Shown: piece after piece, positions 42,515 through 55,296 of the stretch | Layout: the number at the start of each line of letters is the position of its first letter | How positions within the stretch are numbered: position 1 is the first letter of the stretch | Assembly: GCA_003604975.1 (NCBI GenBank) | Contig: QZIR01000012.1 | Location: 1 to 64,000, forward strand | Source: Desulforudis sp. | Lineage (GTDB): Bacteria; Bacillota; Desulfotomaculia; Desulfotomaculales; Desulforudaceae | Direction: 5' to 3' | DNA: 64,000 bases | The notes under the pieces: model-generated | Seen by the model: only the letters and a program-made list of their open reading frames with translations | Told to the model about the DNA's origin: nothing | Databases searched by the model: none | Made by a program: the position numbers and the translations under genes

Positions 42515-43000
42515 GTGGCGGAAGCTATAAGCTCCGGGGACAGCAGGCTCAAAAAGGGGCGACCGTTGGGGTTCTTTGAAAAGTACCTGACCCTGTGGGT
42601 ACTGCTCAGTATGGCCGTCGGCATCGGCCTGGGGGCGCTTCTGCCCCAGACCGCGGAAGTTCTTAACGCGATGTCTATCGCCCAGGTCAACATCCCGATC
42701 GCCTTCCTGCTGTTCGGAATGATGTACCCGATTATGGTACAGATCGATTTCAGCGAGATTGTCCAGGCCTTCCGGAACCCCAAACCGGTAGCGCTTACGC
42801 TGATCATTAACTGGGGTGTAAAACCCTTTACCATGCTCTTTTTCGCCTGGCTGTTCTTTCACGTTATCTGGGCTCCGTTCTTCACATTCGAAGAAGCCTC
42901 TTCATATATCGCCGGCCTGATCCTGCTCGGAATCGCCCCGTGTACGGCCATGGTCCTGGTCTTTATGGGCGCCTTTGTCAATCCCGTGCGGAGCGTGTTT
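42515..43000 (+). pseudogene. truncated ACR3-type arsenite permease (copy 1)
   Basis: The plus-strand frame starts GTG 42515 and encodes the N-terminal part of an ACR3 pump: [39 protein letters not shown] and the substrate-site Cys in GIAPCTAMVLVF. Homology stops shortly after residue 155, and the frame continues to 43066 only as the antisense of the FmdE gene. It is about four-fifths identical in DNA to the start of the second remnant at 51709. The junction with fmdE (roughly 42960-43010) is a rearrangement point. Confidence 0.8.
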
Positions 43001-43621
43001 TATGGTTCCGACACGAAAGCCCTTCTCTTCAATGAAGTACCCGTCTCCGGCACAGGGACGGCATAAGGCCTTTCCTTCACGGTAAACCTCACACCCGTCC
43101 CGTACCACAATGCCGCAGTGGGTACAGACCGTCTTGGATCGCGTCGGTCCCGGCATCATCGTGGACGTAAGCGGAACTTCCACCCGGTACACATTGAACA
43201 ACAGCGCTTCGCTCATAAATGGGTAAGCCCGCAATTCCCGTGCATACGGTTGGGAAATGTCCGGAAACATTCAGGCCGCCAACTCACGCGAATCCTCCCG
43301 GGCCACCACCCGAACCGCTTTACTGGTCGCCAGGTTTACAAAGGTAGCCGCCATGATTCCATAGTCCCGGTACTTGAGTGAACGACGACCGAGACGGCAG
43401 TTGGTGACCGTCTGGACGGCGTCCGCGGCACAACGATCCATCTCCACAAAAACAATAAGCTTCTTTAGCTGATGCAATTCGTCGGGGTTTTCGAGACCGA
43501 TGAGTTTTAGGCCCAGCAGGGCCATACGCACACCGATTATCTGGCCGGGGCAAAGGTGGCCGTGTTCGGCGGCGGAGCGGTTGAGCAGGGTAGTGAAGGA
43601 GCGTCCGCCAGTAGCTGTCAA
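42998..43621 (-). pseudogene. FmdE-family protein interrupted by an in-frame TGA
   Basis: TTG 43621, 8 bases after AGGAGG, starts a protein with the FmdE core: [15 protein letters not shown] near residue 19, [17 protein letters not shown] near 54 and [12 protein letters not shown]. At 43273-43271 a TGA interrupts the frame between SRELAA and MFPDISQPYAREL; the same frame continues to the zinc finger CTHCGIVVRDG and LCRPCAGDGYF. The TGA could derive from CGA (Arg). No SECIS-like hairpin follows, so a nonsense mutation is more likely than selenocysteine. The 3' end abuts the ACR3 remnant. Confidence 0.75.
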
Positions 43622-44482: not shown

Positions 44483-45586
44483 GTGCAAGCGATTCTCAAA
44501 AGACTTCAGGACTTCCGGCTGCTGCCCGTATTCGTACTGGTCAGCATGGGTGTGGGCATTCTGATCGGGAAGCAGTACGGGATCTCAGAGTTCCAACTCA
44601 CCCCGCCGATCGACGCCCTGGCCCAAATCGCCCGCGGCGAATATGTGTGGACTCTGCCCAACTTCCTGGCGCTGGGCGTGGTTATCGGACTGTTTCTAAT
44701 GATCTACCCGGCCATGACCAAGATCCGCTTCGAGGATCTCGGCAAGGCCGTCCGTTCACCGAAGCAGTTGCTACTCGTGATGTTTTTCAACTACGCCGTC
44801 GCCCCCTTCTTTATGTTCTTGTTGGCAAAGCTGTTCCTGTCCAACCACCCGGACTTATACGTCGGTCTCATCATCTACGGGTTAGCCCCCTGTATTGCGA
44901 TGGTCATCGTGTTCACCTTCCTAGCGCTGGGTAACAACGCCCTGGCCATCGTGCTGGTGGCAATCAATTCGATCATCCAGATGCTCTTGATCCCGGTGTA
45001 CGCCAAGCTCCTATTGGGTGATGTCCAGTTTGACGTGCTGGTCGTCGGCTACAGCGTGCTGCTGTACCTAGGCCTGCCCCTGCTGGCCGGTTTCCTCACG
45101 CGGCGGATCGGGGTGGGCCGTATGGGCGAGGAAGGGTTTGAACGGTTCCGGCCCTACCTAGACTCCCTATCCATTATCGGCCTGCTCTTCACCCTGATCG
45201 TGATGTTCGCCCTGAAAGGCGACCTGATTCTGGAGTCGCCCCAGATCATCCTGCTCATGGCTGTACCGATGACCATTTTCTTCTGGGTGATGTTCGGGGT
45301 CGTTTACCTTACCTGCTGGAAGCTCGGCTTTACCTATGAAGACTCCGTGGCCGCCGGTTTCAACAGCACCGGCCGCGACTTTGAGATCGCCATCGCCATC
45401 GCCATCACCGCCTTCAACCCGGTCGTGGCCTTGGCCACTGTGGTCGGCCCGCTGATCGAGGTACCGGTGATGCTGGCTCTGGTCTGGTTTGCCCGCGCCA
45501 CCCGTGACAAGCTTTTCCCGGGACGGCACGTGGGATCACAGGTCAAGCTACAGCCCGAATCAAGCAGGGAAATCGCTTCTTCCTAG
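44483..45586 (+). CDS. acr3: ACR3-family arsenite efflux pump
   Basis: Ten-helix membrane permease of the bile acid/arsenite family that expels As(III). The 367-residue protein keeps the key residues: the Cys in YGLAPCIAMVIVF near residue 137 and the Glu in NSTGRDFEIAIAIA near 303. GTG 44483 lies 8 bases after GGGAGGA. It is the only intact ACR3 gene of three here. Its divergent neighbour is arsR, and arsA and arsD converge on it from the right, consistent with an ATPase-assisted pump. Confidence 0.93.
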   Translation: MQAILKRLQDFRLLPVFVLVSMGVGILIGKQYGISEFQLTPPIDALAQIARGEYVWTLPNFLALGVVIGLFLMIYPAMTKIRFEDLGKAVRSPKQLLLVMFFNYAVAPFFMFLLAKLFLSNHPDLYVGLIIYGLAPCIAMVIVFTFLALGNNALAIVLVAINSIIQMLLIPVYAKLLLGDVQFDVLVVGYSVLLYLGLPLLAGFLTRRIGVGRMGEEGFERFRPYLDSLSIIGLLFTLIVMFALKGDLILESPQIILLMAVPMTIFFWVMFGVVYLTCWKLGFTYEDSVAAGFNSTGRDFEIAIAIAITAFNPVVALATVVGPLIEVPVMLALVWFARATRDKLFPGRHVGSQVKLQPESSREIASS

Positions 45587-45608
45587 ACGTCCTTGGCGCA
45601 CGATTGTA

Positions 45609-45639
45609 AACCCGGCTCTCGAGGAGAGCCGGGTTTTTT
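45609..45639. terminator. strong bidirectional terminator between acr3 and arsA
   Basis: Twelve-base perfect arms AACCCGGCTCTC (45609-45620) and GAGAGCCGGGTT (45624-45635) around a 3-base loop, followed on the plus strand by six T. It sits between convergent acr3 and arsA. Confidence 0.9.
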
Positions 45640-45654
45640 GGGTTATTTATCGGG

Positions 45655-47535
45655 CTACAGCCGATTCCAGTCCGTGAGGACTTCCGCACCCGGAGGCTTG
45701 GCCCGGTCCGGCGGGCCGAAACGGGCATCATCCCGCAGGGCTGTGGAAAACAGCTCTTCGAGACCGTGCCTTCCCAAAGGCGCTTCGATCTGCCAGGGAA
45801 TGTACACCGTTTTTGGAGCCAGTTCATCAATGACCTTGGTCAGCCACGGGCCCTCAGCCCGGGCCAGGCTCGTGAGGACGGGGTCGCTGGCCTGAACCCC
45901 GGTCCAGGTCTGGTTGATAATCCACCAGGCCGGTTCGATCTCGGCCCGGCGCAGGTCATCCTGCAGTCGGGAGGCCTCTAAAACCGGTGTGGCCTGGGCA
46001 AGTGTCACCACCAGGACGTGGGTCAGCTCGGGATCCCGCAGACGGGGCAGGAGCATCCGGACTTCCTCCGGTACGCCGCCGGTGTTCCGTTCTACCTCCC
46101 GGTGGTAGGCCTGGGTCGCATCCAGCAGGAGCAGGGTGTGTCCCGTCGGTGCGGTGTCCAAAACCACAAAGCCTTCGTCCACCTTGGCCACCGCCCGCGC
46201 GAAGGCCCGGAAAACAGCGATTTCTTCGGTGCAGGGAGAGGCCAGGTCTTCGGCCAGGAGTGCCCGGCCTTCCTCGTCCAACTCCGCCCCGGCCGTACGC
46301 ATGACCTCGTCACGGTAAGCCGTGACCTCGGCCGCCGGATCAATATGGCTGACCGACAGCCGTTCTTCTTCACCCCGTTGAGCGCCCGCCAGGGTAATTT
46401 CCAGGTGTGCCGTGGGATCGGTGGTGGAAAGGTGTACACGGTGCCCCTGCTCCGCCAGGGCCAGCGCCATCGCCGCGGCGACGGTTGTCTTACCGACCCC
46501 GCCCTTGCCCATCACCAGGACCACGCCCTTCTCACGCGCGCCCAGATCCGCCAGTATGGCATCCAATCCCTGCGGAGCGTTGATGCTGCCTGCTTCTTCT
46601 TCGGCGTAGGCAGGGGCTTTCGGACTCTGTCCCGGCCCGAGGTGAGTAACATCCGATCGGCCCTCCCGGATCTGCTCGGCCAGAATGCGCAGGCCGGCCA
46701 ATCCCACCGGCAGTACCGGCAGCAGCGGTACCACCAGGCGCGGGAACCCCCTGATCGCCGCCGGTATATGGTCCAGGGCTTCCTGCTGCCGCTCCTTGAA
46801 GGCTTGAGCCACACGGTCTTCTCCGGTGGTCGTCAGGACACCGTTAATCACCAGTCGCTGGTTGGTGAGGCCCAGTTCCTGCAGTTCCTTTCCTGCTCTG
46901 GCCGCCTCCGCCAAGGCCGAAGGCTCGGCTCTCGTCACCAGAAAGAGAGTGGTAAAGCCGATGTCACTCAAGCTCGACACCGCATTCTCATACTTCTGCC
47001 GTTCTTCCCCCAACCCGGACACAGGCCCGATACAGGACGCGCCGTGCACATTGTCACCCAGGAAACCGGACCAGGCTTTGGGCAGGGCGAGCAAGCGTAG
47101 CGTATGACCGGTGGGTGCCGTATCGAAGACAACATGGTCGTAGTCGGACTCACCATCCGTATCACACAAGAGACTGGTGAAGAGGGAGAAGGTCGCGATC
47201 TCCAGCGTACATGAGCCGGAAAGCTGCTCTTCCATAGACGCGACTACCTCTTTCGGCATCGTTTCGCGATAGGGGCCGATGACCTTCTCGCGGTATTCCC
47301 TGGCGGCCTCTTCGGGATCCAGGTTAAGCGCCCATAAGCCGTCAACTCCGGCTATTGCCGTCGGCTGTTGACCGATTTCGGTTTCAAAGACATCATTCAG
47401 GTTCGATGCCGGATCGGTGCTCACCAAAAGGACTCTCTTACCTGCATCGGCCAGGTTCATCGCCATTGCACAAGCCACGGATGTTTTCCCAACGCCGCCC
47501 TTGCCCGTGAAAAACAGGTAGCGTGTAGCGTCCAA
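45655..47535 (-). CDS. arsA: arsenite-stimulated pump ATPase ArsA
   Basis: Cytosolic ATPase that energises ArsB/ACR3 arsenite export. Two homologous halves are seen: P-loops GKGGVGKTS (11-19) and GKGGVGKTT (343-351), and DTAPTGHTL signature sequences near 138 and 462. Three cysteines in the metalloid-site contexts are kept: Cys109 (SGSCTLEIA), Cys168 (GASCIGP) and Cys435 (SPCTEEIA). The 626-residue length is slightly above E. coli ArsA. It starts 6 bases after arsD ends. Confidence 0.95.
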   Translation of the reverse strand: MDATRYLFFTGKGGVGKTSVACAMAMNLADAGKRVLLVSTDPASNLNDVFETEIGQQPTAIAGVDGLWALNLDPEEAAREYREKVIGPYRETMPKEVVASMEEQLSGSCTLEIATFSLFTSLLCDTDGESDYDHVVFDTAPTGHTLRLLALPKAWSGFLGDNVHGASCIGPVSGLGEERQKYENAVSSLSDIGFTTLFLVTRAEPSALAEAARAGKELQELGLTNQRLVINGVLTTTGEDRVAQAFKERQQEALDHIPAAIRGFPRLVVPLLPVLPVGLAGLRILAEQIREGRSDVTHLGPGQSPKAPAYAEEEAGSINAPQGLDAILADLGAREKGVVLVMGKGGVGKTTVAAAMALALAEQGHRVHLSTTDPTAHLEITLAGAQRGEEERLSVSHIDPAAEVTAYRDEVMRTAGAELDEEGRALLAEDLASPCTEEIAVFRAFARAVAKVDEGFVVLDTAPTGHTLLLLDATQAYHREVERNTGGVPEEVRMLLPRLRDPELTHVLVVTLAQATPVLEASRLQDDLRRAEIEPAWWIINQTWTGVQASDPVLTSLARAEGPWLTKVIDELAPKTVYIPWQIEAPLGRHGLEELFSTALRDDARFGPPDRAKPPGAEVLTDWNRL

Positions 47536-47541
47536 CGAACC

Positions 47542-47844
47542 TCACTCCTTGCTCCATGCTTCAAACTCATCACTAGTCGGGTAGCGCCCGGTCAGGCGTA
47601 CCTCGTTGTCCACCAGAACCACCGGCAGGACGTCCGCACCCTTTTCATTCAGGAGCCTCTGCACCTCTTTCTCAGCAACAAAGGCCTGTGGCTCCTGGGA
47701 GAGGTTATACCGTTTGACCTTCACACCCTGGTTGCCCAGTCGCTGCAAATCCGCAGCCACCCTCATCAGCTCCCGGTTCGGACTCGGGCCGCAAAGCCCC
47801 GTACTGCAGCACATCGCGGGATCAAAGATGGCAATGTTCTTCAT
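47542..47844 (-). CDS. arsD: arsenic metallochaperone ArsD
   Basis: Delivers As(III) to ArsA and has weak repressor activity. The 100-residue protein begins MKNIAIFDPAMCCSTGLCG with the vicinal Cys pair and third Cys needed for metalloid binding, then RVAADLQRL and DVLPVVLVDNEVRLTGRYP. The C-terminal Cys pairs of some ArsD proteins are absent. ATG 47844 lies 8 bases after GGGGGGA. Directly upstream of arsA. Confidence 0.94.
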   Translation of the reverse strand: MKNIAIFDPAMCCSTGLCGPSPNRELMRVAADLQRLGNQGVKVKRYNLSQEPQAFVAEKEVQRLLNEKGADVLPVVLVDNEVRLTGRYPTSDEFEAWSKE

Positions 47845-47913
47845 CACTCAAATCCCCCCATAAGCTTGGTTGGACTTATTGTCTATTTCACAGGGATTGA
47901 ATATACGCAGCCC

Positions 47914-48188
47914 TTACCAGTCTCGGTCCAACTCCGTAACCGTGACGTAAACACGCGGTGAAATGCCGGCGTTTTCAAGGGCTTTCCGGGCAAAGCCAAT
48001 CCCACACCCGTCGATGGCCACGCACTTCTTTGCCTTCCTGGAAGCCTCAACAAACGAAGGTAAGTGAGCCCCCACTCCGATAAGGCAGTACATCCTCTCC
48101 TGACTCAGGGTATCTAGGGTTTTGGCAGCATCTTTTTGCTCTGATACTTGACTGATAGTTCCACAGAAACAAGGACGTCAGTAATCAC
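47914..48188 (-). pseudogene. frameshifted DGC-domain (putative zinc-binding) protein
   Basis: A GTG at 48188 behind AAGGGAG starts MITDVLVS; one base is missing around 48163, after which the next frame reads CGTISQVSEQKDA, MYCLIGVGAHLPSF and CVAIDGCGIGFARKALE to TAA 47914. The DGC domain signature IDGC is present, but the usual second Cys before ARK is Phe. The product would be about 91 residues. An intact DGC paralogue lies at 50961. No normal start codon exists in the main frame. Confidence 0.65.
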
Positions 48189-48252
48189 ACCGGCTCCCTT
48201 TTCCGGGCGTTCGTATGGGATAATCCCTACTCAGCAACGAATAGCGACCCGC

Positions 48253-48714
48253 TTAGGGCCGATCCTTGCTGACCCCATCGAAGAAACGCTTCAGGTTCTC
48301 CGGCAGCTCCTGCAAACTGTCTCTTTCCGGAGGTGGCTGGATAGATCCCCCGTAGACCTCCCGCAGGATGGCATCCATGATCATGGCCTTTGGCGGCACG
48401 CTGTATTCCTTGCCCTGGTAGACCCAGACGCGGCAATCCACGTCCTCGCCGCAAAGGTCCCCGCAGGACTCGCACAGACTCTCCTTCACGTCAAGCTGGA
48501 TGTCGCGGCCGTTGATCCGGATCGTGGGTGAACTGACAAACCTCTGCTCCAGGGCCTGTTCGGCGGTTTGGATGTGAATGCTGCGTACCTTAACCTCCAC
48601 GCCGGTGGCTGCTAGAAGGCGGGCCACTTCGGTCACAGCCTCTTTCAGACTGTTCTCGGTCCCCTGGCAGCGTGTGCACACGCTCAGGTCAACATATAGG
48701 AACTCGATGTCCAG
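48253..48714 (-). CDS. DUF2703-family Cys-rich protein
   Basis: A thioredoxin-like-fold protein common in arsenic gene clusters. Conserved parts are EFLYVDLSVCTRCQGT with a CxxC, FVSSPTIRINGRDIQL near residue 60 and the Cys-rich ESLCESCGDLCGEDVDC near 79. The first GTG (48681) would cut through the conserved N-terminal strand. Upstream the frame stays open only to the TAA at 48750, with no ATG, GTG or TTG. CTG 48714 giving MDIEFLYVDL is the best fit. Function unknown; a metalloid-binding or redox role is inferred. Confidence 0.8.
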   Translation of the reverse strand: MDIEFLYVDLSVCTRCQGTENSLKEAVTEVARLLAATGVEVKVRSIHIQTAEQALEQRFVSSPTIRINGRDIQLDVKESLCESCGDLCGEDVDCRVWVYQGKEYSVPPKAMIMDAILREVYGGSIQPPPERDSLQELPENLKRFFDGVSKDRP

Positions 48715-48747
48715 GCGCCTGGTCCCGATCCCACTTTCGGTACTGGG

Positions 48748-49128
48748 TTAGGAAGCTCCCAGCGGGGATGGGCAGCAACCCTGGCCCTCTTCGGCAGTAT
48801 TGCCCGTGCAGCTGCACCCACATGTGTCAACTCGCTTAGGTTCCACGCTATCTCCTCCTTGTTGGTTGTCTCTGGAAGCCATGTACTCCCTTAGGTTCCG
48901 TATCACTTCTTCGTCCGTGGGTATGCGACCGCATATGCTGTCGTTGGTGTAGACGATCTTGTGGCCCACAGTCACTTCGTAGATCTTGTTGTGTCCCTCA
49001 ACCAGTTCCGTTTTTAGCCCGATTTCTCTGATGGCAGCCGCCAGACCGGCGGCGTGTCGGAGATAGCCTCACTCCACGCAGTAGGTTATCTGCACCGGTG
49101 GCAGTCCATTGAATCCGTGTAATCCCAT
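48748..49128 (-). CDS. Rdx/SelW-like selenoprotein with Cys-rich tail
   Basis: ATG 49128, preceded by AAGGAG with 7-base spacing, opens MGLHGFNGLPPVQITYCVE, then an in-frame TGA at 49071-49069 (codon 20), then GYLRHAAGLAAAIREIGL and EGHNKIYEVTVGHKIVY to TAA 48748. This is the Rdx fold: a beta strand ending in YCxxU, a helix, and the IYEV...P...EEVI pattern. The TGA replaces the second Cys of the CxxC motif, giving Cys17-x-x-Sec20. A SECIS-like hairpin follows. The C-terminal 30 residues add CGCSC and GCC. Read as 126 residues including Sec. It lies in the arsenic operon before DUF2703 and arsD/arsA. Confidence 0.85.
49037..49053 (-). promoter_or_regulatory. bacterial SECIS hairpin
   Basis: On the minus strand GCCGCC (49053-49048), loop GGTCT (49047-49043), GGCGGC (49042-49037). 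The loop starts 21 bases after the TGA. The GGUCU apical loop and the distance match the fdhF-type SelB recognition element (about 18 bases in E. coli fdhF). Confidence 0.8.
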
Positions 49129-49228
49129 ACTGTTCTCCTTCCCTTCTTAGGCCTTTTCCCAAACTCCCCCATGTTGAATCCTTTCCTTTTTTTCTAATCA
49201 ATCAGAAACCGCTTGGTGAGCGTACCCT

Positions 49229-50149
49229 CTACAGCGAAGCCTGCACGAACTGGAACAGGTATCCGGCGCCAATGGCAACAGTGAGCACGGTGATCACAAA
49301 GGCCGCCACTAGCCGCCGCCGGAAGATGGCGGAGAGTAGCAGCAGTTCCGGAATACTGGCCCCGGCCCCGCCGATGATCAGGGCGATCACCGCACCGATG
49401 CCCATCCCTTTGCTAATCAGCACGGAGCTGACCGGAATAATCGTCTCCGCCCGGATGTACATGGGGATTCCGATCACGGCCGCCAGCGGAATGGCCAGCG
49501 GGTTGTCTGCGCCGGCCACCCGCACCACGAAGTCCTGAGGGACGAAACCGTAGATCAGGGCACCGACGGCGGCACCCAGCAGAAGGTACACGAACACCTG
49601 CCGGAAGAGGGCTTTTGCTCCTCCAAAAGCTCTCCGGAAACGCTCACGGGTGGTGTCTTTAGTGCTGTCCGATGAAGCCCCCCCGCCGCAGCATCCCCCC
49701 TGGATTTCCACGCCCTTGTATTCACATGCAAACCCAAGCCGCTCCCAGATCATCCCGCTCAGTACCGCTGCGGTGAACACGACCGCGATGTAGACAACGG
49801 TGGTCTTGATACCCAGCAGGACGAAGAGGAGTGCGACGATCACGGGGTTTAACAGCGGCGAGGCGATCAGAAAGGACATCGTCACCCCGAACGGCGCACC
49901 CCCGTTCAGGAGCCCGACCAGGATCGGAATCGTGGAACAGGAACAGAATGGGGTGACCATCCCAAAGGCAGCGCCAAGCACATTACCCACGCCTCTGCGC
50001 TGGCGTTCAAGAATAGTCCTGATCCTTTCCGGCGGGACATATTCCTGAAGCAGCCCAACCAGGAAGCTGATACCGATAAAAAGTACGGTCAATTCGGCCA
50101 TGATGATCAGGAAAAAGGTCAAGGTATCGATCAGATAGGCGGTTTCCAT
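49229..50149 (-). CDS. PF03773 permease (ArsP/SO_0444-like)
   Basis: Membrane permease with about eight helices. GMVTPFCSCSTIPILVG near residue 85 carries the conserved Cys cluster; a cytoplasmic loop has GGCCGGG near 155 and the second half shows GIPMYIRAETIIPV. Related ArsP proteins export trivalent organoarsenicals and other members export metals. ATG 50149 is chosen over 50179. It follows the padR gene by 48 bases and precedes the selenoprotein gene. Confidence 0.88.
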   Translation of the reverse strand: METAYLIDTLTFFLIIMAELTVLFIGISFLVGLLQEYVPPERIRTILERQRRGVGNVLGAAFGMVTPFCSCSTIPILVGLLNGGAPFGVTMSFLIASPLLNPVIVALLFVLLGIKTTVVYIAVVFTAAVLSGMIWERLGFACEYKGVEIQGGCCGGGASSDSTKDTTRERFRRAFGGAKALFRQVFVYLLLGAAVGALIYGFVPQDFVVRVAGADNPLAIPLAAVIGIPMYIRAETIIPVSSVLISKGMGIGAVIALIIGGAGASIPELLLLSAIFRRRLVAAFVITVLTVAIGAGYLFQFVQASL

Positions 50150-50197
50150 AAGCCTGCTCACTCTCCCAACATAGAACAACAGCTGCCAGTGGGCTGC

Positions 50198-50563
50198 TTA
50201 TCTCCCCTCTTGCGGTACCTGAACCGCCTTCAGGATGTAACCGGTCACCTCCTGCCAGGCGTCAACCGCTACCTCAAAGGCCTCACGGCCCCTGGCGGTG
50301 AGGGTATAGACCTTCCGTTCACGACCGTTGACGATTTCCGTGGAGGCGGTAACATAACCGCCGTCCTCGAACTCACGGAGAACGGGGTAAATCGTCCCCT
50401 CGGTGGGAGTACAGCAGCCCTTCGTGACAGAGGCCACGGTCTGGGCGATTTCGTACCCGTGCATTGATTCGCGGTACAATACCCGCAAAATAAAAAACTT
50501 GGAGAGGCTCATTTTGATAATACCGTTCCAATACTCACGGTTGGTGTAGTCCACGCGGCTCAA
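50198..50563 (-). CDS. PadR-family transcriptional regulator with Cys pair
   Basis: Winged-helix regulator. Shows REYWNGIIKMSLSKFFILR, SMHGYEIAQTVA and EGTIYPVLREFEDGGYV, the PadR DNA-binding core. A KGCCTPTEG stretch places two adjacent Cys at the start of the recognition helix, suitable for metalloid sensing. TTG 50563 lies 6 bases after AGGGGGG. It precedes the permease and selenoprotein genes and may control them; this is inference. Confidence 0.85.
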   Translation of the reverse strand: MSRVDYTNREYWNGIIKMSLSKFFILRVLYRESMHGYEIAQTVASVTKGCCTPTEGTIYPVLREFEDGGYVTASTEIVNGRERKVYTLTARGREAFEVAVDAWQEVTGYILKAVQVPQEGR

Positions 50564-50666
50564 CCATATCCCCCCTCTATGCATTGATGGGCAAGGTATA
50601 GTTGCATTATGTGGCGGGCTTCCTGGGACTGTCAACCAGGGAAGGTTAGATACCTGCGGTCATAGA

Positions 50667-50923
50667 TTATTGTGCTTGGGATGGTTGCGTCTCTAGTTTC
50701 AGATACGCGAGGTATTCTTCCCACAGTTTTAAGCGCTCCTTAGCCTCCTCAATGTCGAGCTTCTCGATGGCATATCCGGTGTGGGCAATAAGATAGTCTC
50801 CCTCATACACCTCTCCCACCAGCATAGTGTTCACAGAACGGGTGACACCGAAGACCCGGACTACCGCCCCTGACTATTCTTCTTGTCCACCTCGATCACG
50901 CGCCCGGGTACAGCTACGCACAT
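50667..50923 (-). pseudogene. frameshifted HypC/HupF-like gene
   Basis: ATG 50923 behind AAGGAGG starts MCVAVPGRVIEVDKKN, the HypC hallmark with Cys2. The frame stops at TAG a few codons later, but the next frame reads VVRVFGVTRSVNTMLVGEV and GDYLIAHTGYAIEKLD to TAA 50667. A run of four G (CAGGGGCGG) where five would keep the frame explains the break. No other hydrogenase maturation gene is in the window. Confidence 0.8.
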
Positions 50924-50960
50924 CCCAACAACCTCCTTCGGCAAGTTCGAATTTGATTTA

Positions 50961-51483: not shown

Positions 51484-51708
51484 TGATAATGAACTAGAAA
51501 ACAACTAGCAACGAGACTGCTCCGGGAGTTAGTGCCCACTGCCAATTGCCTCCGCATATGGCCGATTCAGATTGTTCCACCATCAAAGGAACGGCATCCC
51601 AGCTATACAATGATCTTTTGCGGAAACACTAAGCAATGTGGTCGGCCAACCGGCTCACCGGCACAAGGCCGGGAGGCGCGTTACTACTTTTGGTAGAGGA
51701 TGATAGTT

Positions 51709-52418
51709 ATGGCGAAAGCAGTGGACTCCGGGGAAGGCCAGCTCGAAAAGGCGCGGCCGTTGGGGTTCTTTCAGAAATACCTGACCCTGTGGGTGCTCCT
51801 CAGTATGGCGGTGGGCATCGGGTTGGGCGCCCTTTTCCCAAGAACGGCTGAACTGCTGAATGCAATGTCGATTGCCCAGGTGAACATCCCCATCGCCTTC
51901 CTGCTCTTCGGCATGATGTACCCGATTATGGTGCAGATCGACTTCAGCGAAGTCGTCCAGGCCTTCCGGAATCCAAAGGCGATGTCATTCTGGCGCAGCC
52001 CCTGCTGATCGGGATGATCGCCGTCCCCCTGATCATCCAGACCCTGGTTATTTTCACCATTACCTACATTGCCGCCAGATTAATCGGGCTTTATTATGAG
52101 GATGCTGCTCCGAGCGCCCTGATCGGGGCCTCGAACCACTTTGAGGTCGCCATCGCCACCGCCGCCACCCTGTTTGGGCTGGCCTCCGGAGCCGCTCTGG
52201 CCACTGTGGTCGGGGTGCTGATCGAAGTCCCCCTGATGCTCATCCTGGTCCGGATCTGTCTGCGCACCATGAACCGCTTCCCGCGCAAGGTTGCCGCCTC
52301 CGCAAGCCCCCGTAGCGGGGCGCTGACACCAAGGCCCACCCAGGCCTTCTGCCGTCCCGGCTTATCACCCGCCCGCGAGCCCGCCGGCGATCCAGAAGAT
52401 CCAGAGCGCGAGGACTAG
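51709..52418 (+). pseudogene. ACR3-type permease with internal deletion (copy 2)
   Basis: ATG 51709 starts a frame with LGFFQKYLTLWVLLSMAVG and [16 protein letters not shown]; after AFRNPK the sequence jumps directly to [19 protein letters not shown] in another frame and continues with [19 protein letters not shown] and [12 protein letters not shown]. About 130-150 central codons, including the substrate Cys, are gone and the frame is shifted (first stop 52006-52008). The 3' end overlaps the convergent ccdA-like gene. Confidence 0.85.
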
Positions 52419-53336: not shown

Positions 53337-53876
53337 TCAGGTGTTGGCCTCCTCTTCAATCCACTGCTTAAGCTGCCTTTTCGTTGGTACCTTCCCGGCC
53401 ATCTTCACCTCACCGTTGATGATCAGGCCAGGTGTAACCACGACATTGTACTCCGCAATCTCGTTGACGTCCTCGATCTTCTCCAGGTCCGCCGCCACGT
53501 TCATCTCTTCCAGGAGATTGCGAATGTCCTTCTCCAGCTGACGGCAGCGATGGCAGCCCGGTCCCAGCACCTTGATCTCCACCAGCCCGGGAATACCTTC
53601 GTAAGGAAGTTGCTCTACGGGCAACCCCATCCGGACCTTGTAGAAGCGTACGAGGTCCCTGGCATACTCGTCTTGCGCGGCATCAGGGACGTAGTTTATG
53701 GCCCTGACCCGGTCCAATATCTCCCGGGCTAGATCCGTATCGGAAGTCAGGCCCATCTTCGCTACCGCCTCGACGGTTTCATCCATTCCGGCGATGCCGA
53801 CCTTTACCCCGCCAATCTTCACCTGGGTAATCTTCTCTTTCTCTTTCCCGTCTTTTCCAAACAGTTTCTTTAGCAA
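53337..53876 (-). CDS. two-domain thioredoxin-fold protein
   Basis: The C-terminal half (about 98-179) is a TM0996/MTH895-type small redox protein with VLGPGCHRCRQLEKD and VVVTPGLIINGEVK. The N-terminal half (about 1-95) begins MLKKLFGKDGKEKEK and has a helical domain with GIAGMDETVEAVAK of unknown role. It may reduce or bind metalloids for the upstream permease. It begins 59 bases after the neighbouring 80-residue paralogue. Confidence 0.85.
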   Translation of the reverse strand: MLKKLFGKDGKEKEKITQVKIGGVKVGIAGMDETVEAVAKMGLTSDTDLAREILDRVRAINYVPDAAQDEYARDLVRFYKVRMGLPVEQLPYEGIPGLVEIKVLGPGCHRCRQLEKDIRNLLEEMNVAADLEKIEDVNEIAEYNVVVTPGLIINGEVKMAGKVPTKRQLKQWIEEEANT

Positions 53877-53935
53877 GGCCTCACCCCCTCATGAAAGATC
53901 ATCCACCGTCCGGCAAATCGCCACCATCCCCAGTC

Positions 53936-54178
53936 TCATACGTGAGCTTCCTCGATCCACCGTACGATCTCTTCACGCTTCGGTACCTTTCCCGAAACCT
54001 TGACCTGGCCATTGATCACCAGTCCCGGTGTCAGGAAGACGCCGTAGTCCGCGAAAGAGTTGATGTCCGTGATGTACTCAATGGTGGTATCGACACCCGT
54101 CTGCTTGACCGCCATCTCTACCTCCGCAAGCACGGTATGACACTTCTTACAACCCGGACCAAAAACCTTGATATCCAT
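53936..54178 (-). CDS. TM0996/MTH895-family small thioredoxin-like protein
   Basis: An 80-residue protein beginning MDIKVFGPGCKKCHTVLAEV with a CxxC redox site, then FLTPGLVINGQVKVSGKVP. It contains the cis-Pro typical of thioredoxin folds. It is found beside PF03773 permeases in many anaerobes. ATG 54178 is preferred over an upstream start at 54190 because the family begins at this strand. Confidence 0.9.
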   Translation of the reverse strand: MDIKVFGPGCKKCHTVLAEVEMAVKQTGVDTTIEYITDINSFADYGVFLTPGLVINGQVKVSGKVPKREEIVRWIEEAHV

Positions 54179-54225
54179 CAAAACAAACAACCTCCTTAAT
54201 GGTGCCAGGCACCTAACTTATTAAC

Positions 54226-55296
54226 TTATGCGAAGAAGTTTCCGAAAATGTACCCCGAGACGGTGGCCATAGCGACTACAAGCAGGATGTATACAGCCGT
54301 CTTCTTCGTTCCCATGACGTTGCGGATGACCAGCATGTTCGGCAGGCTGAGTGCCGGTCCGGCCAAGAGCAGCGCCAACGCCGGTCCCTTACCCATCCCC
54401 AGATCAACAAGCATTTTAACGATGGGCACCTCGGTCAGGGTTGAGAAATACATCAAAGCGCCGACCACCGAGGCAATCAGGTTGGCCAGCAACCCGTTAC
54501 CGCCTACGGAGTAGGCGATCCAGTACTCCGGGATGACCACCTTCAATACTCCGGCGACGAACACCCCGACCAGCAGGATGGGTACAATCAGTTTGACCAG
54601 CGTCCAGGTCTCGATCATCCAGTTCCTGATTTCATCTCGCTCGAACCAGTGGTTCACAACCAGGACAAGGGCACCCAGCAGCAACGCCAGTCCGCCGATC
54701 TTCAGGACCAGCGCGATCTGCATGGTGCCGACCAGCAGGATCGCCACCAGCAGCCCGAAGAAGGCAACCAGCTGGAACGGCGGTTTTCCGTCCTCGGTCA
54801 TCCCCGCGGCGAAGTCACGGGCCGCAGCCTGTTCCCGGGCCGCCTTGGCGGCCTCTTCGCGCCGGAAGAGGAAAGCCATGATCAAGCCGATCACGATCGC
54901 AAAGACAACCGCCCCCAGTGCGCGGCCGGCCCCGATGTCCAGGCCCAGCTTACGGGCCGTAAGCACGATGGCCAGCAGGTTGATCGCCGGACCAGCAAAC
55001 AGGAAGGTCACCGCCGGACCCAGGCCCGCCCCCTTGCGGTAAATGCCCGCGAACAACGGCAGAATGGTACAGGAACACACCACCAGGATCGTTCCGGACA
55101 CGGAGGCCACCCCGTAGGAAAGCGGCTTCGGAGTGGTTGGTCCGATGTAGCGTAGCACAGACCCCGTGGAGACCACGGCGGCGATCCCTCCGGCGATGAA
55201 AAAGGCGGGAACCAGGCAGGTCAACACGTGGGCGGACAGGTATTCCAGGATCTCGTAGTACCCGCCCAGCAGGGGGGCGACCAGAATATCAATCAT
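54226..55296 (-). CDS. PF03773 permease (ArsP-like), large form
   Basis: A 356-residue membrane protein of about ten helices. SGTILVVCSCTILPLFAG near residue 70 carries the CxC site; the second repeat shows STLTEVPIVKMLVDLG and LAGPALSLPNMLVI. A charged cytoplasmic loop (about 145-170) separates the halves. Export of trivalent or organic arsenicals is inferred from context and family. An AT-rich perfect dyad lies 25 bases upstream. Confidence 0.88.
   Translation of the reverse strand: MIDILVAPLLGGYYEILEYLSAHVLTCLVPAFFIAGGIAAVVSTGSVLRYIGPTTPKPLSYGVASVSGTILVVCSCTILPLFAGIYRKGAGLGPAVTFLFAGPAINLLAIVLTARKLGLDIGAGRALGAVVFAIVIGLIMAFLFRREEAAKAAREQAAARDFAAGMTEDGKPPFQLVAFFGLLVAILLVGTMQIALVLKIGGLALLLGALVLVVNHWFERDEIRNWMIETWTLVKLIVPILLVGVFVAGVLKVVIPEYWIAYSVGGNGLLANLIASVVGALMYFSTLTEVPIVKMLVDLGMGKGPALALLLAGPALSLPNMLVIRNVMGTKKTAVYILLVVAMATVSGYIFGNFFA

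Follow-up and report, generated by a model that had tools for sequence, protein, structure and literature searches.

Does a reading frame that runs through an in-frame TGA inside an arsenic operon encode a selenoprotein, and what would a selenol be doing there? The question arises at positions 48748-49128 of a 64,000-nucleotide stretch of a Desulforudis sp. genome (contig QZIR01000012.1, positions 1 to 64,000; assembly GCA_003604975.1), a stretch that we call the window. An initial annotation had proposed at this place an Rdx/SelW-like protein with a CxxU motif. The features discussed below, in the direction of transcription, are the following.

50198-50635, minus strand: PadR-type regulator, first gene of the putative operon (named by eye from the sequence)
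49229-50179, minus strand: ArsP_1-family permease, immediately upstream of the Rdx ORF (PF03773, 185 bits)
49135-49140, minus strand: ribosome-binding site AAGGAG, 6 nt 5' of the ATG (from the sequence)
48748-49128, minus strand: putative Rdx (SelW-like) selenoprotein ORF (PF10262, 29.2 bits; predicted fold; SelW-related best solved structures)
49069-49071, minus strand: TGA, codon 20, read as selenocysteine in CVEU (from the translation and the conservation in homologues)
49037-49053, minus strand: SECIS-like hairpin GCCGCC-GGUCU-GGCGGC (folding and covariation)
48751-48873, minus strand: Cys-rich segment (CGCSC...GCC), first part of an Rdx-DUF2703 linker, predicted to be disordered (linkers of relatives, pLDDT)
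48748-48750, minus strand: TAA between the Rdx and DUF2703 halves (sequence, comparison with fusions)
48253-48747, minus strand: DUF2703 half, open from the TAA onward (122 bits)
47914-48190, minus strand: DGC-domain gene between DUF2703 and ArsD, its 5' part out of frame (PF08859, 44.7 bits over the 3' part)
47542-47847, minus strand: ArsD metallochaperone (132.6 bits, cut-off 90)
45655-47535, minus strand: ArsA arsenical pump ATPase, last gene (770.7 bits, cut-off 650)

The frame runs from 49128 down to 48748 and gives a protein of 126 amino acids with one Sec (U20), translated as MGLHGFNGLPPVQITYCVE-U-GYLRHAAGLAAAI...CGCSCTGNTAEEGQGCCPSPLGAS, then TAA. Read on the forward strand, 48748-49128 holds no such protein, and that reading was discarded. 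The initial annotation had described a normal ATG with a strong ribosome-binding site, a frame open through one TGA to a TAA, an Rdx-type fold and a TGA placed in the redox motif, and all of this was confirmed, the sole in-frame TGA lying at 49071-49069 within C17-V-E-U20 and the TAA at 48750-48748. Its expectation that ordinary gene callers would leave a 75-residue piece was also borne out, as table 11 without recoding merely yields a 75-aa ORF with a GTG start (48975-48748, minus strand). The profile search that it had suggested placed the recoded protein above the gathering score of Pfam PF10262 Rdx (29.2 bits against 22.6), the relatives scoring 32-59 bits. The predicted fold is SelW-like (E-H-E-E-E-H, with a pLDDT of about 95 over residues 11-80), and the top Foldseek matches of the model were the SelW-related structures 2oka, 2fa8, 2obk and 3dex (TM 0.74-0.83 by target). 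The best NCBIfam matches, NF041051 (SelT/SelW/SelH family (seleno)protein, 43.1 bits, cut-off 88) and TIGR02174 (23.6 bits, cut-off 34.2), both fell short, so that the models used by NCBI would leave the protein unnamed; some relatives do reach the TIGR02174 cut-off.

The genome is equipped to insert selenocysteine. Its machinery is complete (selA 613 bits, selB 363, selD 398, and a tRNA-Sec of 74 bits with anticodon tca), so the search for selA, selB, selC and selD advised by the initial annotation found all four, and selD itself reads GGGUAAKIG through an in-frame TGA, which makes it a selenoprotein gene too. A search of GTDB genomes that allowed any residue at the Sec position gave 20 loci of the subfamily; adding the window and three more loci from Bacillota (L099, L100 and L102) makes 24 distinct members. 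The codon at the Sec position is TGA in 23 of the 24, the window included, and CGA in one, with no Cys form at all, and the conserved TGA spans at least five phyla, going by record titles. The lone CGA (Arg; L035, 10025-10027) occurs where the hairpin is kept, in a genome bearing selA, and represents either a recent loss of Sec or a sequence error. A chance TGA in a Cys gene was rejected, because homologues from several phyla have the TGA at the same position. Absent Sec machinery together with homologues lacking Cys or Sec at position 20 had been named beforehand as the finding that would speak against a selenoprotein; the machinery is complete and the TGA conserved.

A bSECIS hairpin is expected some 16-37 nt from the UGA, with a G opening the apical loop. 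The hairpin of the window begins 15 nt past the TGA and its GGUCU loop 21 nt past it, and it agrees with this expectation in distance and in the loop G. In an ungapped alignment of 21 subfamily members, its columns were paired in 85.7% of cells vs. at most 59.9% when the pattern was slid, and nine two-sided (compensatory) changes were spread over four of the seven pairs; for four of the five measures the observed values were matched by only 0 to 5 of 500 shuffles, counts that are weakened by the relatedness of the sequences and by coding constraint on the same columns. Folded against shuffles, the 22-nt hairpin element had a z of -2.42. The 45-nt stretch after the TGA had no excess stability (z -0.50), and for the SECIS claim we therefore rely on the hairpin itself and the covariation. 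Judged from these sequence features, the window gene is very likely a selenoprotein gene with the UGA of codon 20 read as Sec, and we infer that Sec is inserted in vivo.

The end of the frame needs another interpretation than the one first given. The CGCSC and GCC cysteines had been taken for an added metalloid-binding tail of a stand-alone Rdx protein; we replace this by the linker of an Rdx-DUF2703 fusion cut by the TAA, because what follows the TAA in frame aligns with the second, DUF2703 part of such fusions and lacks its own start codon. Fusions of Rdx, linker and DUF2703 without the TAA are found at L033, L035, L036, L010/L041, L013/L044, L040, L050, L099, L100 and L102 (both domains confirmed by Pfam in L033, L036, L040, L044 and L050), and at L014/L046 the Rdx frame continues toward DUF2703 without a stop up to the contig end. 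The relatives often have CC- or CCC-rich linkers at the corresponding place; the pLDDT is 49-58 over the Cys-rich segment of the window, and the predicted structure of the fusion is of low confidence (pLDDT 66). Past the TAA the window frame continues ...GTRRLDIEFLYVDLSVCTRCQG..., the full DUF2703 model covering 48714-48367 on the minus strand (132.7 bits), and its first ATG, GTG or TTG is at 48681, inside the domain. A DUF2703 half without its own start codon implies either that the window copy is truncated or that the TAA is an error. The simplest reading is one fusion gene broken by a TAA, which is either a genuine nonsense mutation or an error; in the window the gene is probably truncated and may be non-functional. 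If the TAA is no sequencing error, this copy would yield just the Rdx half and its linker, the stop lying 3' of the linker cysteines. Stand-alone Rdx members exist (L037, L038, L042, L045, L048 and L049), and a free Rdx protein is therefore viable in principle.

Some further details of these frames were noted. Within the linker of the window there is an AAGGAGG followed by an in-frame GTG at 48846-48844 (together 48844-48860), a possible start for a linker-DUF2703 protein; as the start of a separate protein of this kind it was rejected, for translation from this GTG would stay in frame and run into the TAA as well. The Thermincola-type fusions L033, L036, L050, L099 and L100 end in ...CTUS, ...CUS, ...GUS or ...CTUK and then a stop, which is either a second Sec or a TGA stop closely trailed by another stop. 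At L037 (9881-10225) a second in-frame TGA lies 5' of the Rdx domain (PTSGUCDMKIVRV), and this member may contain two Sec residues and have an additional metal-binding segment at its N-terminus.

The subfamily is distinct from ordinary SelW. In a tree of 76 columns, the branch parting its 24 members from 15 ordinary SelW-like selenoproteins of the same taxonomic order had a support of 100/100, and the profile scores were 84-134 bits for the subfamily vs. at most 49 for ordinary SelW. Where ordinary SelW has PSSGGVF, the subfamily has an EGHxGI loop. All complete members except L045 and L051 have an extra Cys (C66 in the window) before the Pro after strand 4, and a His (His46 in the window) is missing in L045 and L102. 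Unlike ordinary SelW, the subfamily forms its own clade with its own loop and Cys, and it has arsenic or mercury neighbours and fusions to DUF2703, HgcA or HgcB. What it shares with SelW-like selenoproteins (PF10262) is the fold, the domain length, CxxU at the end of strand 1 and the dominance of the Sec form (PMC1794560, PMC2398784, PMC13188914).

The location in an arsenic operon, with an ArsP_1 permease upstream and ArsD and ArsA downstream, stands as originally described. PadR, ArsP, Rdx, DUF2703, DGC, ArsD and ArsA are all on the minus strand and closely spaced, as members of one operon would be, between a promoter-like TTGACA-18-CATAAT before PadR (50635-50606) and a terminator-like stem of 13 pairs after ArsA (45608-45636). 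For the permease (49229-50179) the nearest NCBIfam models were SaoE (119.6 bits, cut-off 325) and SO_0444 (112.1), both below cut-off. Other parts of the island are disturbed: the DGC-domain gene (47914-48190) and a HypC-like gene (50667-50934) are frameshifted, pointing to decay or assembly errors, and two Acr3-like frames are broken by frame changes (42515-43270 and 51700-52418) next to an Acr3 that is intact (44483-45586). The region 53337-55296 contains a further ArsP_1-type permease (54226-55296) and two thioredoxin-like proteins, apparently another arsenical export unit. Plasmids, phages and viral contigs were searched for the window feature and gave no match, and an origin from a mobile element was discarded on these grounds.

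The neighbourhoods of the relatives extend the association. They were scanned by tblastn (1e-8 or stricter) with ArsP, Acr3, ArsA, ArsD, ArsM, ArsG and HgcA as queries, and arsenic or mercury genes were found near 13 of the 20 subfamily loci vs. none of the 15 ordinary SelW loci, where mostly 10 kb of flank was scanned (Fisher p 6e-5). As three query proteins came from subfamily loci, we also give the value for window-derived query proteins only, p = 5e-4. No arsenic or mercury gene was found in the scanned flanks of the remaining seven (L042, L045, L048, L049 and L051 among them), four being on contigs shorter than 9 kb; the neighbours of L042 and L049 are housekeeping genes. Arsenic may thus not be the only substrate. 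Within the order of the window, arsenic genes occur at L037, L038, L044, L046 and L052 and none at L041, a 7 kb contig. A PadR homologue stands beside ArsP in L038, L040, L044 and L052; the gene order of L044 is that of the window (PadR-ArsP-Rdx-DUF2703), and L040 has PadR and ArsP beside Rdx-DUF2703. Elsewhere the arrangements are ArsR-Rdx-ArsM (L034; ArsM 341 bits, cut-off 263) and ArsP, Rdx, ArsF, ArsG and Acr3 (L047). Two loci lead to mercury. In a Desulfobacteria MAG (L043, 8236-10339), HgcA (471 bits) is followed by an HgcB fused to a CVEU Rdx (HgcB 118 bits, cut-off 99), and in a FCB group MAG (L039, 9968-10758) a CVEU Rdx with a Cys-rich linker is fused N-terminally to an HgcA (220 bits) cut by the contig end, with an ArsR-like gene just upstream.

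A selenol is a strong ligand of soft metals and a nucleophile. In its usual form the protein consists of an N-terminal Rdx domain (CxxU), a flexible Cys-rich linker and DUF2703, thioredoxin-like and with a CxxC. The selenol/thiol pair, aided by the subfamily-specific Cys66 and His46, would capture or reduce a soft metal(loid), most likely trivalent inorganic or methylated arsenic. A site made up of the CxxU and the added Cys and His could accept As(III), methylarsenite or Hg(II). Ligand or electrons would be handed on by the cysteines of the linker and by the CxxC of DUF2703, and the operon's own exporters, ArsP or the pump driven by ArsD/ArsA, would carry the load out. The computation itself gives the family, the conservation of the TGA, the Sec machinery, the hairpin, the fusions and the gene neighbourhood; the substrate and the direction of the relay we infer. 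For the whole reading taken jointly, i.e., a UGA read as Sec, an Rdx subfamily tied to arsenic and mercury, the fusion architecture and a selenol/thiol metalloid relay to ArsP or ArsD/ArsA, we would give a probability of roughly 0.68. The selenol-dependent arsenic step of the initial annotation survives as something suggested by neighbourhood and fusion only; among the relatives there are also signs of a connection with mercury and with methylated metal(loid)s.

Tentatively, and at somewhat less than even odds, we see in this Sec-dependent SelW subfamily a dedicated soft-metal(loid) carrier. Its CxxU, Cys and His would take up As(III), methylarsenite or Hg(II), and the recipient would be an exporter, ArsP or Acr3, or a methylating enzyme, ArsM or HgcAB, in some cases on the same polypeptide. 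The main rival is a reductase, in which electrons would pass from the DUF2703 CxxC to the Rdx CxxU and reduce arsenate or methylarsenate(V), the pumps exporting the trivalent form. CxxU and CxxC in one chain do resemble a two-step electron relay, the source genome has neither a PF03960-type ArsC nor a TIGR02691 match above cut-off, and a DUF2703 gene of a Rhodococcus ars cluster, induced by As(V), has been proposed to encode the thioredoxin partner of ArsC (PMC6514093). However, the HgcA and HgcB fusions and neighbours like ArsM fit ligand handling or methylation better, and many relatives adjoin export genes with no known need for a reduction. Moreover, SelW-like proteins are not known to have As(V) reductase activity. 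We find this role rather unlikely.

Rdx/SelW proteins are generally regarded as thiol redox proteins, and some members of the subfamily are away from arsenic genes, so that a general repair or antioxidant oxidoreductase, guarding the ars products under metalloid stress and leaving arsenic itself untouched, also has to be considered. It is hard to reconcile with the ordinary SelW of related genomes, beside arsenic genes in 0 of 15 cases, and with the extra Cys and His of the subfamily and its direct fusions to metal(loid) proteins, and we regard it as improbable. More remote still is a decayed gene, with the TGA arisen from a Cys codon by nonsense mutation as the island degenerates. The broken frames nearby (the TAA after the linker, the DGC and HypC-like genes, the Acr3 fragments) would agree with it, but TGA in 23 of 24 members and Cys in none, an intact hairpin and complete Sec machinery largely refute it for the TGA; the downstream TAA may well be decay.

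SelW-like CxxU selenoproteins are themselves long established (PMC1794560, PMC2398784, PMC9312934, PMC13188914), and the use of CxxU by Rdx/SelW, as the initial annotation had stated, is found in standard lists (PMC1794560, PMC9312934, PMC13188914). The word "overlooked" therefore applies to less than was first meant by it: the family is known, and only the window gene and its subfamily seem to be unlisted. DUF2703 (PF10865), the second domain, is known from genes in ars clusters (PMC6514093), and the window copy scores 61.3 bits against the DF family (seleno)protein model NF049942 (cut-off 70). Unlike known DUF2703, that of the subfamily keeps Cys in its CxxC and is joined to a Sec-containing Rdx. 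A further parallel is the Sao system and the neighbourhoods of Haft and colleagues (refs 63 and 64 in PMC13188914), which have in common with our loci several selenoproteins around a permease, an organometal theme and an HgcB with Sec; SaoE is also the closest NCBIfam model of the window permease. The selenoproteins named in this 2026 review (PMC13188914) include HgcB, the DF family and the Sao proteins; its table of the Sao/Haft families has neither a SelW-like protein nor an Rdx-DUF2703 fusion, and no such fusion occurs in the passages covered. The literature searched contained no link between SelW/Rdx and ars operons, in line with the original impression that the arsenic link is undescribed, and the novelty of this link is provisional.

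Few selenoproteins are as widespread as the SelW-like ones, and a Sec-only branch of them in arsenic operons, fused to DUF2703, HgcA or HgcB, presents a testable class of substrates: As(III), methylarsenicals and Hg(II). If the reading is true, the first domain would be missing from the annotation of many ars loci, because the UGA hides the Rdx part and the NCBIfam models stay below their cut-offs; and if the carrier role is true as well, this would be the first substrate assigned to any SelW-like protein.
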